From contig CANQQE010000018.1 in assembly GCA_947625935.1 (NCBI GenBank), positions 1-56,431 on the forward strand: DNA of 56,431 nucleotides, read 5' to 3'. A program made the translations under genes and the position numbers. The notes under the pieces were generated by a model. That model saw only the letters and a program-made list of their open reading frames with translations. It was not told where the DNA came from and did no database searches. The stretch's first letter is position 1, and each line of letters begins with the position of its first letter. This DNA is from an uncultured Muribaculaceae bacterium. Its GTDB lineage: Bacteria; Bacteroidota; Bacteroidia; Bacteroidales; Muribaculaceae. This document shows, piece after piece, positions 18,199 to 45,682 of the stretch.

Positions 18199-18632
18199 AA
18201 TAACGGCTGCTCGGACTGTAAGCCGGGTTATGTCGAGACACCGCTGTCGGCACGACGGCCTGAGCCGCCTGCCGAGCCTGTGTCATCGGCTCGTCATTTA
18301 TCTATACCGACGGTCACCCGACGGCTAAAGCAGTCTACCCCCCGGCAATGGACGAGCAGCCCTTGAATGCCGGTATACTTGACCTTGCAACCCATAAGAC
18401 GTGCGGCCGGCCGCGTCACCGCTGCCGCCGGTGGGCTCTTACCCCACCTTTTCACCCTTACCCGCCCCGCTTGGGGAGAGGGCGGTTATTCTCTGTCACG
18501 CTACTCTACCGTCGCCGGTAGCTTCCCGTTAAGAAGTATGGCGCTCTTTGTTGCCCGGACTTTCCTCACGGCCATATGCCGCCGTAGCGGCTACAGCCCC
18601 GCGACGAGCCGTCCAAGCCGCCGTTTATCATT
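18199..18632 (-). ncRNA. rnpB: RNase P RNA (type A-like)
   Basis: On the minus strand the conserved pieces appear in order: GAGGAAAGTCCGGGC (complement of about 18554-18568), GACAGAGAATAACCGCC, GGTAAGGGTGAAAAGGTGGG and GGTAAGAGCCCACC, and near the 3' end ATAACCCGGCTTACAG. The P1 helix closes the molecule: minus-strand complement of 18611-18625 pairs with that of 18202-18216 with one bulge and a G-U pair. It cuts 5' leaders from tRNA precursors. Ends are estimated from P1 and from the -7 box at 18640-18647. Length about 430 bases. Short open frames crossing it are chance. Confidence 0.95.
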
Positions 18633-22943: not shown

Positions 22944-23016
22944 AGCCGCGAGTGGGACTCGAACCCACGACCTTTTCGTTACGAATGAAATGCTCTACCG
23001 ACTGAGCTATTGCGGC
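22944..23016 (-). tRNA. tRNA-Thr (CGT)
   Basis: 73 bases on the minus strand. D arm GCTCAGTCGGTAGAGC, anticodon loop TTCGTAA (anticodon CGT, reads ACG) and T arm GTGGGTTCGAGTCCCAC are complete. Two positions are A-C mismatches: A6-C67 in the acceptor and A31-C39 in the anticodon stem. CCA is not encoded. The encoded discriminator base is T. Confidence 0.93.
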
Positions 23017-30894: not shown

Positions 30895-31130
30895 CACCCT
30901 CTGACATCCAACTCGTTGCAGTGTTCCTGATCATTGCCGCAGCTATCATCTATATCATCTTCAGAGTCATGCGCAGGCGCAGCGGCAACTGTCCCGACGG
31001 CCTTGCCGATGACGATTGCGGCGACTGCCCGCTGAAGAAAAATTGCAAAAAAGTTGGTCAAAAATTTGTCAGTTCAAAAAATATGCCTACCTTTGCAACG
31101 CAAAACCAAAAACGACGCTTGCGAAAATAG
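30891..31130 (+). CDS. Small Cys-rich single-helix membrane protein
   Basis: 79 residues: one membrane helix (about 8-24, VAVFLIIAAAIIYIIF), a basic stretch, then NCPDGLADDDCGDCPLKKNC with four Cys. This resembles the FeoB-associated Cys-rich membrane family, although no feoB is nearby. It overlaps the topB stop by four bases. The last 25 codons run through the promoter of the following tRNA-Gly, and its TAG stop lies within the first ten bases of that tRNA, so the C-terminal tail (after KKVGQKF) is probably unconstrained. Confidence 0.6.
   Translation: MTPSDIQLVAVFLIIAAAIIYIIFRVMRRRSGNCPDGLADDDCGDCPLKKNCKKVGQKFVSSKNMPTFATQNQKRRLRK
31065..31095 (+). promoter_or_regulatory. tRNA-Gly promoter inside the upstream ORF
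   Basis: TTTG at 31065-31068 and TACCTTTG at 31088-31095, 19 bases apart, followed by CA. It sits 26 bases before the first tRNA-Gly and inside the end of the small Cys-rich ORF. Confidence 0.7.
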
Positions 31131-31193
31131 CTCAGTTGGTAGAGCACAACCTTGCCAAGGTTGGGGTCGCGGGTTCGAGTCCCGTTTTTCGCT
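31121..31193 (+). tRNA. tRNA-Gly (GCC), first copy
   Basis: 73 bases: acceptor GCGAAAA/TTTTCGC, D arm GCTCAGTTGGTAGAGC, anticodon loop TTGCCAA (GCC), T arm GCGGGTTCGAGTCCCGT. CCA is not encoded. Identical to the copy at 31251-31323. Confidence 0.97.
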
Positions 31194-31250
31194 CAACGAG
31201 AACAATGAAATAATTCACATCGACGCCACGCAAGCCAATAGCTGCGATAT

Positions 31251-31323
31251 GCGAAAATAGCTCAGTTGGTAGAGCACAACCTTGCCAAGGTTGGGGTCGC
31301 GGGTTCGAGTCCCGTTTTTCGCT
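31251..31323 (+). tRNA. tRNA-Gly (GCC), second copy
   Basis: 73 bases identical to the first copy, 57 bases downstream and probably in one transcript. The duplication is confined to the tRNA; the spacers differ. Confidence 0.97.
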
Positions 31324-31346
31324 CTCATTATCATTATCACATTTTT

Positions 31347-31366
31347 ATGCAGACAGGTTTCTGCAT
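31347..31366 (+). other. Short hairpin between tRNA-Gly and tRNA-Leu
   Basis: ATGCAGA (31347-31353) and TCTGCAT (31360-31366) form a perfect 7-bp stem with a six-base loop. It may be a processing site or a weak stop between the tRNA genes. Confidence 0.4.
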
Positions 31367-31382
31367 GGCGTTGATTGAAAAT

Positions 31383-31466
31383 GTCCGGGTGGTGGAATTG
31401 GTAGACACGCTACTTTGAGGGGGTAGTGGCCGTTCGGCTGTGTGAGTTCGAATCTCATCTCGGACA
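31383..31466 (+). tRNA. tRNA-Leu (GAG)
   Basis: 84 bases, class II with a long variable arm. Acceptor GTCCGGG/CTCGGAC (one G-T pair), anticodon loop TTGAGGG (GAG, reads CTC/CTT), T arm with GTTCGAATC. CCA is not encoded. Confidence 0.95.
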
Positions 31467-41139: not shown

Positions 41140-41487
41140 ATGAATCTGATTAAATTGAAAAGAGCCTATGAGCCATCGTCGCCCGACGACGGTTACCGCG
41201 TGTTTGTCGATCGCCTTTGGCCCCGGGGGCTAAGCCGGGAAACGTTCCATTACGACGAGTGGGACAAGGAGATTGCGCCGAGCGAGGAATTGCGCCACTG
41301 GTTCCACGCCGACCCCGACGGACGCTGGGAAGAATTCGAGCGACGTTACCGCGCCGAACTCGACGCCACCCCCGCATTCGCAGCACTAAAGAAGCGGCTC
41401 GCCTCAAAACCAGCAGTGACCCTCATCTACAGTTCCCGCGACAACGCCCACAACAACGCCCAAGTCCTCGAACAAGCTCTGACCTAA
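41140..41487 (+). CDS. DUF488 family protein
   Basis: 115 residues, full length for the short form. IKLKRAYEPSSPDDGYRVFV, DRLWPRGLSRETFHYDEWDK, ELRHWFHADPDGRWEEFERR and VTLIYSSRDNAHNNAQVLEQ match DUF488 (YeaO-like). The function of the family is unsettled. No promoter pair was found. It is a single gene upstream of the aromatic operon; no terminator separates the two clearly, but the operon has its own promoter. Confidence 0.88.
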   Translation: MNLIKLKRAYEPSSPDDGYRVFVDRLWPRGLSRETFHYDEWDKEIAPSEELRHWFHADPDGRWEEFERRYRAELDATPAFAALKKRLASKPAVTLIYSSRDNAHNNAQVLEQALT

Positions 41488-41528: not shown

Positions 41529-41558
41529 TTGCTGATTGAAAATAAATGACTACTTTTG
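41529..41558 (+). promoter_or_regulatory. Promoter of the aromatic amino acid operon
   Basis: TTG at 41529-41531 and TACTTTTG at 41551-41558, 19 bases apart, followed by CG. Transcription would start near 41565, about 20 bases before the leader peptide and 170 before the first enzyme gene. Confidence 0.75.
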
Positions 41559-41582
41559 CGTCACAATCTTGAAGAAAAACAG

Positions 41583-41660
41583 ATGACACGTTTCTTTGCA
41601 TATTATTATTCCTTTTTTTACTACTTTACCAAAAGCGGTAGCGGGATTTTATGTGCATAA
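41583..41660 (+). CDS. Phe/Tyr leader peptide
   Basis: 25 codons, ATG 41583 to TAA 41658-41660. It starts MTR and then reads FFAYYYSFFYYF: five Phe and five Tyr within residues 4-15, with codons TTC TTT, three TAT, two TTT, two TAC and TTT, followed by a short tail ending ILCA. Aromatic density this high is expected only in a leader peptide that senses charged tRNA-Phe and tRNA-Tyr. The last codons and the stop overlap the 5' arm of the antiterminator (41641-41652), so a ribosome that reaches the stop masks this arm. It is not in the length range of normal gene calls. Role inferred from position and structure. Confidence 0.88.
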   Translation: MTRFFAYYYSFFYYFTKSGSGILCA

Positions 41661-41717
41661 CCTCAATGATTGAATGATTGACATAAATATAAAATCCCGC
41701 TTAAACGGGATTTTTTT
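41641..41717 (+). promoter_or_regulatory. Transcription attenuator (antiterminator/terminator switch)
   Basis: GCGGGATTTTAT (41641-41652) pairs perfectly over 12 bp with ATAAAATCCCGC (41689-41700), the antiterminator. The same right arm, AAAATCCCG (41691-41699), pairs with CGGGATTTT (41706-41714), a terminator stem with a six-base loop and seven T (41711-41717). The two structures exclude each other. If the ribosome stalls at Phe or Tyr codons, the left arm is free and readthrough follows; if it reaches the stop codon at 41658, the left arm is covered and the terminator forms. The loop between holds a tandem AATGATTG (41665-41680). Confidence 0.9.
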
Positions 41718-41732
41718 ATTATAGATACACCG

Positions 41733-42599
41733 ATGAAAGATAATCGTAAACGAGTGACAATACAAGGCGTGGCCGGATGCTACCACGATGCGGCGGCAAG
41801 AGGTTACTTCGCCGGCGACGACATCGAGACAATCCCCTGCGACTCCTTCCCGGAGATGTTCGAGACTCTCGGCGGCGACGCCTCGCTACTTGGCATAGTG
41901 GCCATCGAGAACACAATAGCCGGAAGCCTGCTCTACAACCATGAGCTGCTCAGACAGAGCAACATGGTGGTCATCGGCGAACACAAGATGCGCATATCCC
42001 ATGTGCTGGCAGCCCTCCCGGGACAGTCAATCGACGATCTCACCGAAGTCAACTCCCACCCCATGGCCCTGATGCAGTGCGAGCAGTTCCTGCGGCGGCA
42101 CCCCAACCTGAAAATGATCGAGGGTTTCGACACCGCCGGCAGCGCTAAAGAAATAGCCGAGAAAGGACTTACCGGCCACGCCGCCGTGTGTGGCGCCTAC
42201 GCCGCCGAGCTTTATGGCCTGAACATCCTTGAGCGCGGCATCGAGACCAACAAGCGCAACTTCACCCGCTTCCTCGTCATCGCCGACCCGTTGATGGCCG
42301 CGGAGCTGCGACCCGCCGACCGCGACATCAACAAAGCGTCTATTGTGTTCACCCTCCCCCACACCAACGGCGCGCTATCAAAAGCGTTGACAATCCTCTC
42401 ATTCTATGATATAAACCTGTCTAAAATCCAGTCCATGCCGATTATCGGACGCGAATGGGAATACCGTTTCTATGTCGATCTTACGTTCGACAGCCTCGCC
42501 CGTTACCACCAGGCCATAAACGCAGTCAGACCGCTGATCAACGACCTCAGGATTTTAGGAGAATACACCGAATTTGAATCACACGACAATGAAAACTAA
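41733..42599 (+). CDS. pheA: Prephenate dehydratase
   Basis: 288 residues without a chorismate mutase domain: the PDT domain (about 6-190, with TIQGVAGCYHDAAARGYF, the IVAIENTIAGS motif and the catalytic NFTRFLVI motif) and a C-terminal ACT domain (about 203-280). It makes phenylpyruvate for Phe synthesis. In the ACT domain the Phe-binding GALS is kept (TNGALSKAL), but the usual ESRP reads QSMP (KIQSMPIIG), so feedback inhibition may differ from that in well-studied enzymes. First enzyme gene of the operon; its end overlaps the next start by 11 bases. Confidence 0.95.
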   Translation: MKDNRKRVTIQGVAGCYHDAAARGYFAGDDIETIPCDSFPEMFETLGGDASLLGIVAIENTIAGSLLYNHELLRQSNMVVIGEHKMRISHVLAALPGQSIDDLTEVNSHPMALMQCEQFLRRHPNLKMIEGFDTAGSAKEIAEKGLTGHAAVCGAYAAELYGLNILERGIETNKRNFTRFLVIADPLMAAELRPADRDINKASIVFTLPHTNGALSKALTILSFYDINLSKIQSMPIIGREWEYRFYVDLTFDSLARYHQAINAVRPLINDLRILGEYTEFESHDNEN

Positions 42600-43770
42600 G
42601 CCATCCATAGCCCCCGCCCTACGCGTGGGCAACATATCGGAATACTATTTTGCCCGCAAGCTGCGGGAAGTGGCCCGGCTGAACGCTGAGGGGGCCGACA
42701 TAATATCAATGGCCATAGGGGGACCCGACAGACCGCCGCATGAATCGGTCATCGAAACCCTCTGCGAGTCGGCGCGCCGCGACAACACCCACAGCTACCA
42801 GCCCGGAGGGGGCATTCCCGAGCTGCGACAGGCTTTCGCCCGGTTCTACAAACGATGGTATGGAGTCGACATTGACCCGGCGACCGAGCTTAACCCGTTG
42901 ATCGGGTCAAAAGAAGGGATACTCCACATATCACTCGCTCTGCTCAATCCGGGCGACGGAGTGCTGGTGCCGAATCCCGGCTACCCAACATACACATCAG
43001 CAAGTCATCTGGCAATGGCCGAGATATACCCCTACGACCTGACAGCCGAGCAAGGCTGGCTCCCCGACTTCGACGCGCTCGAACGCCTGCCGCTCGACAA
43101 AATCAAACTCATGTGGATCAACTACCCCCATATGCCAACCGGCACCCGCGCCACCCGCGAACTGTTTGAGCAGGTGGTCGATTTCGGACACCGCCACAAC
43201 ATCGTCATCGCCCACGACAACCCCTACAGCTTCATCCTCAACGACAAACCCCTGAGCATCATGCAGGTCCCCGGGGCCAAAGAGATAGCCATCGAGCTAA
43301 ACTCAATGAGCAAAAGCCATAACATGGCCGGGTGGCGTATGGCTATGTTGACATCCAACGCCGAGTTCATCCAGTGGATTGTAAAGGTGAAAAGCAATGT
43401 CGATTCAGGGCAGTTCCGCCCTATGATGCTCGCCGCCGCCAAGGGCCTCGACCTCGACCGGGAGTGGTATGACAGCGTCAACGCCACCTACGCCCGCCGC
43501 CGGGAGATTGTGGAGCGCATCATGACGGCCCTACGATGCACATTCGACCCCGCGCAAAGAGGTATGTTCCTATGGGGACGCATACCCGATAGCGAGCCTT
43601 CGGGCGAAGCCCTCACCGAGCGGGTGCTGCGCGACGCGAGGGTGTTCATCGCCCCGGGATTCATCTTCGGTTCAAACGGCGACCGCTACATCAGGCTGTC
43701 GCTATGTGCCACCGAGGAGAACCTGCTACGCGCACTCGACCGCATCAACAAAATGAATACTGAAAACTAA
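42589..43770 (+). CDS. Class I/II aminotransferase of the aromatic operon
   Basis: 393 residues from ATG 42589, which overlaps the end of the dehydratase gene; a TTG at 42574 is less likely. The fold type I PLP pattern is visible: IAIGGPDRPPHESVIETLCE-like start, GSKEGILHISLALLNPGDGV, YPTYTSASHLA, NYPHMPTGTRATRELFEQ, AHDNPYSFILND, and the PLP Lys in ELNSMSKSHNMAGWRMAMLT. In this operon it most likely transaminates phenylpyruvate and 4-hydroxyphenylpyruvate, or prephenate to arogenate; the DapL/AspC-like sequence alone cannot separate these. 20 bases precede the next gene. Confidence 0.9.
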   Translation: MKTKPSIAPALRVGNISEYYFARKLREVARLNAEGADIISMAIGGPDRPPHESVIETLCESARRDNTHSYQPGGGIPELRQAFARFYKRWYGVDIDPATELNPLIGSKEGILHISLALLNPGDGVLVPNPGYPTYTSASHLAMAEIYPYDLTAEQGWLPDFDALERLPLDKIKLMWINYPHMPTGTRATRELFEQVVDFGHRHNIVIAHDNPYSFILNDKPLSIMQVPGAKEIAIELNSMSKSHNMAGWRMAMLTSNAEFIQWIVKVKSNVDSGQFRPMMLAAAKGLDLDREWYDSVNATYARRREIVERIMTALRCTFDPAQRGMFLWGRIPDSEPSGEALTERVLRDARVFIAPGFIFGSNGDRYIRLSLCATEENLLRALDRINKMNTEN

Positions 43771-43789
43771 AAACGATAAGACACCTATT

Positions 43790-44872
43790 ATGAAAGATTT
43801 GCTACCGATTGAGATACCGGGACTTGACCCCGAGAAACCGCTCATCATCGCCGGGCCCTGCAGCGCGGAGTCCGAGGAGCAAGTGCTGGAGACAGCGAAA
43901 GAACTCGCCGCAAGCGGCATCAAAGTGTTCCGCGCAGGCATCTGGAAACCGCGCACCAAGCCGGGCGGCTTCGAGGGAGTCGGCGCGCCGGGTCTGCAAT
44001 GGCTGAAAAAAGTAAAGGAGACGACCGGGATGCTGACAGCCACCGAGGTCGCCACAAAACAGCACGTCATGGACGCTCTCGCAGCCGGAATCGACATCCT
44101 ATGGATAGGAGCGCGCACTTCGGCCAACCCATTCGCCGTGCAGGAGATTGCCGATGCGATCAAGGAAGCCGGAGCCACCGACATACCCGTTCTCGTCAAG
44201 AACCCCGTCAACCCCGATCTGGAACTGTGGATCGGAGCCATGCAGCGTTTCTACAACGCCGGTGTACGCCGTCTCGGCGCCATCCACCGCGGCTTCAGCG
44301 CCTATGGTAAACACCTGTACCGAAATATGCCGCAATGGCACATCCCCACAGAGCTGCGTCTGCGTTACCCGTCGCTCCCCATCATCTGCGACCCCAGCCA
44401 CATCGGTGGCAAACGCGAACTAATCGCACCGCTGTCGCAACAGGCTCTCGACATGGGCTTCAGCGGCCTCATCGTAGAGAGCCACTGCAACCCCGACTGC
44501 GCGCTCAGCGACGCATCGCAGCAGGTTACCCCCGAGATCCTCAACTTCATTCTCAACACCCTCGTCGTACGCGACAGCAAGCAATCTACCGAAAACCTCG
44601 CATTGCTGCGCCAGCAAATCGACCAGATTGACAACGAACTGCTTGAGATTTTAAGCAAACGCCTACGCGTGTGCCGCGAGATTGGACAATACAAGAAAGA
44701 ACACCGTATGCCGGTCGTGCAGCCTAAGCGTTACAACGACATTCTCCACGGACGCGTGGCAGTCGCCGAGGAGATGGGATTAGGTGCCGACTTCATGCGC
44801 ACAGTGCTTCTCGCCATCCACGACGAGTCGGTGCGCCAACAGATTGAAGTGCTTAACGACCGCGCTCGTTAA
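43790..44872 (+). CDS. DAHP synthase (type I beta) fused to chorismate mutase
   Basis: 360 residues. The N-terminal DAHP synthase domain (about 1-255) has IIAGPCSAESEEQVLETAKE, FRAGIWKPRTKPGGFEGVGA, WIGARTSANP, VKNPVNPDLELWIGAMQR, ICDPSHIGGKRELI and ESHCNPDCALSDASQQ. The C-terminal AroQ-type chorismate mutase domain (about 268-355) has LRQQIDQIDNELLEILSKR and RVCREIGQYKKEHRMPV. It therefore makes both the first product of the shikimate pathway and prephenate. In a characterised Prevotella relative with the same order, the mutase domain regulates the synthase; this is family knowledge. The in-between shikimate genes are not here. Confidence 0.95.
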   Translation: MKDLLPIEIPGLDPEKPLIIAGPCSAESEEQVLETAKELAASGIKVFRAGIWKPRTKPGGFEGVGAPGLQWLKKVKETTGMLTATEVATKQHVMDALAAGIDILWIGARTSANPFAVQEIADAIKEAGATDIPVLVKNPVNPDLELWIGAMQRFYNAGVRRLGAIHRGFSAYGKHLYRNMPQWHIPTELRLRYPSLPIICDPSHIGGKRELIAPLSQQALDMGFSGLIVESHCNPDCALSDASQQVTPEILNFILNTLVVRDSKQSTENLALLRQQIDQIDNELLEILSKRLRVCREIGQYKKEHRMPVVQPKRYNDILHGRVAVAEEMGLGADFMRTVLLAIHDESVRQQIEVLNDRAR

Positions 44873-44908: not shown

Positions 44909-45682
44909 ATGAAGATTCTGATTATAGGAGCGGGGAAAATGGGTTCTTTTTTCTGTGACCTGCTCTCTTTCAGCCACGATGTGGCTATCTACGACACTGA
45001 TCCCCGGCGGTTGAGATTCACCTTCAACTGCCGGCGGTTCTCCCGTCTCGATGAAATTGACGATTTCGCACCCGAAATGGTCATAAATGCCGCCACGGTG
45101 AAATACACCGTCGAAGCCTTCCGCAAAGTGCTTCCACACCTTCCTAAAAGCTGCATTCTTAGCGATATAGCCTCCGTGAAAACCGGTTTACCCGAGTTCT
45201 ACGCCGAAGCCGGACACCCTTTCGTGTCTACCCACCCCATGTTTGGCCCGACTTTCGCCTCTCTGAGCAATCTCGCCGACGAAAACGCCGTGATTATAAC
45301 CGAGAGCGACCATCTCGGCAAGGTATTCTTCCGTGACCTCTACAACCAGTTGCACCTACACATCGAGGAGTACAGCTTCGCCGAACACGATGCCACGACA
45401 GCCTACTCTCTGTCGATTCCTTTCGCGGCCACGCTCATGTTCGCCGGGATTATGAAACATCAGGACGCACCGGGAACAACATTCAAACGCCACATGGCAA
45501 TCGCCCGGGGGCTGATGTCGGAAGATGATTTTCTGATAAGCGAGATTCTTTTCAACCCCAACACCCCCGCCCAATTGGAACGGATGCAGGAGCGGCTGGC
45601 CGAGCTGAAAGCGATTATTGACCGACGCGACTCAGAGGCGATGAAAAGCTACCTCGACCAGGTGAGAGAGCGCATAAAATAA
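44909..45682 (+). CDS. tyrA: Prephenate dehydrogenase
   Basis: 257 residues from ATG 44909; a TTG three codons earlier is possible. It has a Rossmann NAD(P) motif (ILIIGAGKMGSFFCDLLS), the TyrA block VSTHPMFGPTFAS and a helical C-terminal dimerisation half. It oxidatively decarboxylates prephenate (or arogenate) to the Tyr precursor. No ACT domain follows, so Tyr feedback through an ACT domain is not expected. Last gene of the operon; it completes a set leading to both Phe and Tyr, which agrees with the mixed leader peptide. It converges on the P-ATPase gene 18 bases away without an obvious terminator. Confidence 0.94.
   Translation: MKILIIGAGKMGSFFCDLLSFSHDVAIYDTDPRRLRFTFNCRRFSRLDEIDDFAPEMVINAATVKYTVEAFRKVLPHLPKSCILSDIASVKTGLPEFYAEAGHPFVSTHPMFGPTFASLSNLADENAVIITESDHLGKVFFRDLYNQLHLHIEEYSFAEHDATTAYSLSIPFAATLMFAGIMKHQDAPGTTFKRHMAIARGLMSEDDFLISEILFNPNTPAQLERMQERLAELKAIIDRRDSEAMKSYLDQVRERIK

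Follow-up and report, generated by a model that had tools for sequence, protein, structure and literature searches.

The region upstream of pheA in an uncultured Muribaculaceae bacterium is very probably a ribosome-mediated transcription attenuator that reads the supply of both Phe-tRNA and Tyr-tRNA. It lies in a stretch of 56,431 nucleotides (hereafter the window) from a 3.69-Mb genome that counts Muribaculaceae such as Duncaniella muris among its named relatives. A leader peptide ORF with a mixed block of Phe and Tyr codons is followed by alternative RNA helices, and the four genes behind it comprise an operon in which Phe and Tyr are synthesized together (Table 1). As far as sequence can tell, all structural features of a ribosome-mediated attenuator are present, with a mixed outcome of the thermodynamic folding. 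The anatomy of the region, its conservation, covariation and geometry, and a match between codons and operon genes in a few lineages carry this reading.

Anatomy of the leader region

A scan with the sigma-70 consensus detected no promoter upstream of the leader on the + strand, and a Bacteroidota-type box was used instead. The TTG and TACTTTTG elements fit a promoter of this type. Of the 117 family leaders, 110 had a TANNTTTG box no more than 60 nt before their ATG, compared with 6 of 250 control windows. A promoter upstream of the leader is thus predicted by sequence match. The good promoter claimed in a preliminary description of this DNA holds as a Bacteroidota-type motif shared by relatives, not as a sigma-70 promoter.

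Table 1 Features of the pheA leader region and operon, with positions in the window.
Feature	Position	Strand	Remarks
DUF488 gene	41140-41487		Ends 95 nt before leader
Predicted Bacteroidota-type promoter	41529-41558	+	TTG 41529-41531, 19-nt spacer, TACTTTTG 41551-41558
Leader peptide ORF	41583-41660	+	25 codons, MTRFFAYYYSFFYYFTKSGSGILCA; conserved in family
Control codons 4-15	41592-41627	+	5 Phe, 5 Tyr, 1 Ala, 1 Ser
Helix S1, 5' arm	41597-41603	+	Within control codons
Hairpin S2, 5' arm	41618-41627	+	Last aromatic codons
Hairpin S2, 3' arm	41632-41641	+	Just before and overlapping arm 2
Arm 2	41640-41651	+	Antiterminator 5' arm
Helix S1, 3' arm	41651-41657	+	At the 3' end of arm 2
Arm 3	41690-41701	+	Antiterminator 3' arm, also part of terminator
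Intrinsic terminator hairpin	41691-41714	+	41691-41699 with 41706-41714
Terminator T run	41711-41717	+	Seven T
pheA, prephenate dehydratase	41733-42599	+	PF00800, E 3.5e-51
Class I/II aminotransferase	42589-43770	+	PF00155
DAHP synthase fused to chorismate mutase	43790-44872	+	PF00793, PF01817
tyrA, prephenate dehydrogenase	44909-45682	+	PF02153

The leader ORF with its Phe and Tyr codons was exactly as first described, and the terminator and its T run also kept their coordinates. The perfect 12-bp antiterminator exists, but its earlier coordinates (41641-41652 with 41689-41700) were off by one; when extended, it has 15 pairs including one G-U. The leader stop codon is at 41658-41660, and 72 nt and the terminator separate it from pheA.

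Helices S1 and S2 were absent from the earlier reading and were found in this follow-up. S1 connects the end of codon 5 through codon 7 with the bases that end arm 2, and S2 connects the last four aromatic codons with the bases directly before arm 2. In folding predictions, the 5' domain of the leader RNA in the window forms S1 and S2 when no ribosome is present, and in this fold the core of arm 2 is itself base-paired. Because S1 and S2 pair the control codons with the region of arm 2, they represent the 1:2 part of the classical 1:2, 2:3, 3:4 scheme; judged from its sequence, the region thus has the protector helix that includes the control codons of an attenuator. The end of arm 2 (41645-41655, GATTTTATGTG) presumably fits the RNA polymerase pause consensus (G-10, Y-1, G+1), and such a putative pause, directly preceded by S2, could keep polymerase and ribosome in step.

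Elsewhere in the window, RNase P RNA (class A) and four tRNA genes were located (18203-18620, − strand; 31121-31466, + strand; 22944-23016, − strand).

Proposed mechanism and ribosome geometry

From this anatomy we infer ribosome stalling, termination, coupling and the direction of the response as follows. Transcription would begin just upstream of the leader, and a ribosome would start the leader peptide. When Phe or Tyr is short, the ribosome would stall in codons 4-15 and open S1 and S2 with its front edge before arm 2; arm 2 would then pair with the newly made arm 3, no terminator would form and the operon would be read. When both amino acids are ample, the ribosome would reach the stop codon and cover arm 2, leaving arm 3 to pair with arm 4, and transcription would stop near 41717. 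If no ribosome is present, S1 and S2 would compete with the antiterminator.

We measured the distance to the core of arm 2 in 85 leaders, counting from the first base of the last F/Y codon that starts more than 6 nt before the core. It was 14-21 nt in 85/85 leaders and 17 or 18 nt in 64/85. The position of the stop codon was variable, its extremes being 26 nt downstream and 11 nt upstream of the core. A ribosome covers about 12 nt ahead and about 18 nt behind. With this footprint, a ribosome at the stop codon would cover the core of arm 2 in 77/85 leaders, and one stalled at the control codons would leave arm 2 free in 85/85. In the window, a ribosome at 41658-41660 would cover arm 2, as originally claimed.

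Folding was calculated with this footprint, and only for leaders with intact GGG/CCC/GGG cores, 62 of the 85 as whole leaders and 63 as truncated ones. Before arm 4 is made, the mean predicted probability of the antiterminator was 0.96 with a stalled ribosome, 0.03 with a ribosome at the stop codon and 0.55 for free RNA (63 sequences). For whole leaders at equilibrium, it was 0.07 when the ribosome was stalled at the last aromatic codon (antiterminator favoured in 5/62) and 0.22 when it was stalled in the middle of the run (12/62). That the terminator wins at equilibrium in most relatives counts against the mechanism, and the antiterminator there must therefore be kinetically trapped. The window itself switches at equilibrium, with predicted probabilities of 0.99 stalled, 0.49 free and 0.00 at the stop codon.

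Conservation in Muribaculaceae

We searched 198 genomes of the family, for which a completeness of at least 90% was asked, with the pheA of the window, and 107 matched, one of them weakly. The 91/198 genomes without a match may be auxotrophic or carry a divergent enzyme. Of 554 named relatives, the best 80 were taken. The 183 pheA loci in all included 176 with at least 180 nt upstream and gave 165 distinct upstream regions, among which near-duplicates from two collections remain (e.g., L011 and L113, the latter a leader-bearing locus of the cultured Duncaniella muris DSM 103720).

An F/Y-rich ORF followed by a terminator was found in 117/165 upstream regions, and the model added 4 of the remaining 48. 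The preliminary description had proposed to look for conservation of the leader ORF and for compensatory changes in its stems; the leader was conserved in 121/165 family pheA upstream regions. No leader was recognised in the other 44/165, which counts against the explanation. Within the first 20 residues, every one of the 117 leaders had at least three Phe and at least two Tyr; the totals were 529 Phe and 568 Tyr. Among the 1362 codons from the first to the last aromatic one, T occupied position 1 in 87%, T or A position 2 in 82% and T or C position 3 in 90%, a bias that is partly built in because the ORFs were picked on F/Y content.

An aminotransferase, DAHP synthase or tyrA gene was located behind pheA in 69/69 leader loci with enough downstream DNA (of 117). 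The same pathway genes were present at 20/20 checkable loci among the 48 first scored as leaderless. Thus, a broken operon does not explain the loss of the leader.

Covariation of the helices

Alignment A1 was composed of 85 leaders, thinned by shared 6-mers. In S2 and the terminator, 213 cells were changed on both sides, compared with a mean of 74.5 in shuffles (0/500 reached 213); neither these shuffles nor the permutations below take account of relatedness, and the structure under test had itself been derived from this alignment. The best slid version of S2 and the terminator gave 68 cells. For the antiterminator, 64 such cells were counted (shuffle mean 27.4, 0/500 reaching 64; best slid version 30). 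Counting instead the pairs in which both sides changed at least once gave 13 for S2 and the terminator (shuffle mean 9.8, 5/500) and 7 for the antiterminator (shuffle mean 5.3, 19/500 reaching 7), the latter being the weakest measure. The antiterminator that excludes the terminator, a mark of leader-peptide attenuators, is therefore present with covariation in the aligned sequences. In S2, the third-position columns of the aromatic codons (59, 62, 65 and 68) exchange U and C with A and G opposite; in the alignment, codon identity and base pairing are preserved together.

S1 was not visible in a scan of column pairs in the alignment, we suppose because its 3' arm shifts there. It was instead tested by comparing the duplex of each leader's own arms with those of permuted partners, giving means of −10.47 and −7.91 kcal/mol, respectively (0/5000 permutations reached the former). 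S1 of the window is unremarkable, as 25/84 other partners would pair better. Among the 41 leaders lacking the common 5' motif, five (L020, L033, L091, L126 and L169) paired worse than with the median stranger. The compensatory changes were thus observed in S1, S2, the antiterminator and the terminator.

At L069, L075, L078 and L086, arm 2 has CGAG, not CGGG, giving an A-C mismatch in the antiterminator and perhaps a weakened switch.

Distribution in the order and phylum

We searched with model R1 at a threshold of E 0.01 per genome. Matches were obtained in 111/295 genomes (78/178 genera) of the order and in 41/247 genomes of a phylum sample; as the E-values are per genome, about three chance matches are expected in each of the two sets. 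The genome of the window contains one real copy. A second match there (E 0.0155), which lacks an aromatic leader, looks like a terminator that was hit by chance. Seventeen newly found loci of the phylum were read, of which 14 precede pheA and 3 precede a DAHP synthase/chorismate mutase gene.

At the order level, 80 loci with downstream DNA were hand-picked from the R1 places and thinned by genus. A leader candidate starting with ATG was found in 68/80 (G264 and G240 are probably not leaders). Several of the other 12 have non-ATG leaders by eye, e.g., GTG in L263, L267 and L275 (L312 was unread). No aromatic leader was seen in the sequence of L308, L311 and L316, and L314 was rejected as an aromatic leader as it precedes leuA. 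At the R1 matches before leuA (L314/L231, G341:C3:1257-1412), the sequence is MNQAFIHILLCGIIILLAKFSGSEYCA, a similarly built leader rich in Ile and Leu.

A pattern scan for His codons in the genome of the window gave 59 places, 12 of which were made into loci, one having a His leader before hisG. This leader, MIAKYSFNRHHYHHHHPGCKD, is located on contig C3 near 25710 (L363:1465-1530); a TAACTTTG box precedes it, and a hairpin resembling a terminator was recognised by eye. It is probably a second attenuator in the same genome, judging by this arrangement.

Codon content and operon content

Among the 68 order-level candidates, the 12-residue block lacked Tyr in only two, G212 (FFTHFFFFFTQQ) and G221 (FRFFFFFAFFFC). 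These are also the only two of the 68 loci with a lone pheA on a continuing contig (G362 is at a contig end). G403, of the same genus as G221, has the same Phe-only kind of leader before a lone pheA. Thus, all three lone-pheA loci having a leader, in two lineages, have a Phe-only one, and Tyr-less leaders were seen nowhere else. A second leader in G212, with six Tyr and four Phe, precedes tyrA, and in G221 and G323 a mixed leader precedes the genes for an aminotransferase, DAHP synthase and tyrA. In the family of G212, the other pheA loci carried mixed leaders in 16/16 cases, each followed by an aminotransferase gene or tyrA; this survey covered 16 loci from 15 genomes, and 4/20 genomes had no pheA match. 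Some leaders, from the order-level set and from elsewhere, also contain Trp codons.

In the genus of G221, 6/8 lone pheA genes have no recognisable leader, which counts against the trend. No leader is recognisable before the lone pheA genes at L353-L358, of one genus, and coding-looking sequence, presumably truA-like, nearly reaches pheA in L353, L356 and L358.

As the codons match the operon in two independent lineages, the trend is clear but small. The earlier idea that one leader reads both Phe and Tyr is strengthened by these results, with mixed leaders in 117/117, pathway genes in 69/69 and Tyr-less leaders only before lone pheA.

Tandem leaders

Under a loose rule, two leader-terminator units in series were found in 20/83 order-level loci. 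L217, L223 and L224 were put among the 83 because of two R1 matches, and without them the count is 17/80. Under a strict rule, in which arm 2 has at least six Watson-Crick pairs in both units, 11/20 remained. L284 is doubtful as a strict tandem, as its first pairing is probably that of arm 3 with arm 4, and the tandems at L283, L293, L298 and L302 also look doubtful. A promoter box was located before the first unit in 16/20 and before the second in 0/20, suggesting that a single transcript crosses both. Loci in which a single promoter box is followed by two such Phe/Tyr units include L217, L245, L247, L250, L282, L287 and others. In the clearest cases, L217, L245, L247 and L250, the arms of the units differ outside the shared core, and cross-pairing would therefore be limited.

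Alternative explanations

A working leader might mainly sense one amino acid or slow translation, the mixture arising from U-rich codons or RNA structure. The aromatic codons double as arms of S1 and S2, so the sequence is partly fixed by structure, F and Y codons are one base apart, and the Phe-only contrast comes from two lineages. Both residues are nevertheless kept in all 117 family leaders, and G212 has no Tyr before its lone pheA, yet a Tyr-rich leader before its tyrA. We consider this explanation improbable, although less so than the others. A riboswitch or T-box, in which a ligand or tRNA is bound and the ORF is spurious, is very improbable. A terminator with an exclusive antiterminator is common to such devices, but no Rfam T-box or riboswitch matched the region up to E 10, the last aromatic codon lies at a fixed distance from arm 2, and Phe-only and Tyr-rich leaders precede matching genes. 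The codon-position bias, although partly built in by the F/Y selection, also fits an ORF.

The hairpin could also be the terminator of the upstream gene next to a chance U-rich reading frame, since the DUF488 gene ends 95 nt before the leader. However, the promoter box lies in between, and DUF488 was upstream in 1/63 leader loci checked, that of the window itself, indicating that the terminator is not that of the neighbour gene. Conservation in 121/165, together with covariation in the terminator and antiterminator, makes a chance origin untenable, and we give this explanation hardly any weight. Just as little is given to a short ORF that acts on translation, by re-initiation or nascent-peptide arrest, while the hairpins terminate a fraction of transcripts. 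Bacteroidetes are described as having many short leader genes, with a peak at 11-14 bp ahead of the following gene (PMC4833913), but here 72 nt and a terminator intervene before pheA, the location of the stop codon is variable and in many leaders it precedes arm 2. Attenuation by a ribosome reading both Phe and Tyr codons is thus the preferred reading.

Discussion

The enterobacterial pheL/pheA attenuator has a leader peptide with codons of the product, 1:2, 2:3 and 3:4 helices and a terminator before pheA. The region in the window shares with it (RF01859) the leader peptide, three alternative helices and terminator before pheA, but differs in having Tyr codons too, a four-gene operon for Phe and Tyr, and another sequence and host group. 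The ilvGMEDA and thr leaders are multivalent, each carrying codons for several operon-related amino acids; the leader in the window resembles them in this respect, whereas its amino acids, host group and sequence differ. No Rfam family reached the gathering score at the leader site in the window or in 20 relatives. Phe_leader (RF01859) scored 21 bits at the leader region against a gathering score of 55, so the region is not a member.

In the literature, we did not find a Phe/Tyr leader described in Bacteroidota. Lopatovskaya et al. reportedly made a large attenuation search in 2010 (cited in PMC4833913), and this survey could contain the operon. Bacteroid-trp RNA (RF01692), near trp genes by its name, is a candidate cis-regulatory RNA of Bacteroidetes (PMC2864571), like the RNA in the window; it had no gathering-level match in the window or 20 relatives. 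For Bacteroides, short ORFs that resemble leader peptides have been noted (PMC7366714). A transcriptome of Flavobacterium psychrophilum, of the same phylum, gave strong clues to leader-peptide attenuation in front of operons for amino acid biosynthesis, as in the window; in its main text, as available to us, the word phenylalanine is absent and no sequence family, geometry or codon tracking appears (PMC9723704). Thus, the kind of attenuator is known, and we did not find the Phe/Tyr pair in Bacteroidota, the codon tracking or the tandem form described in the literature.

Our results provide a covariation-backed anatomy of a classical attenuator in Bacteroidota, a major gut group, in which Tyr would be sensed along with Phe, and a new RNA family could be started from the alignment and model. 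Nature seems to have run a codon-swap experiment, given that the codons of the leader track the genes behind it in two lineages. We lean slightly toward the view that Bacteroidota have an evolvable aromatic sensor, in which the Phe:Tyr mix is re-tuned to the operon (mixed, Phe-only, Tyr-rich, sometimes with Trp) and several families place two complete attenuators, whose arms differ, in series behind one promoter, widening the range of control. Bacteroidota start translation without relying on Shine-Dalgarno pairing, and this leader makes it testable whether polymerase-ribosome coupling in such bacteria is tight enough for attenuation.
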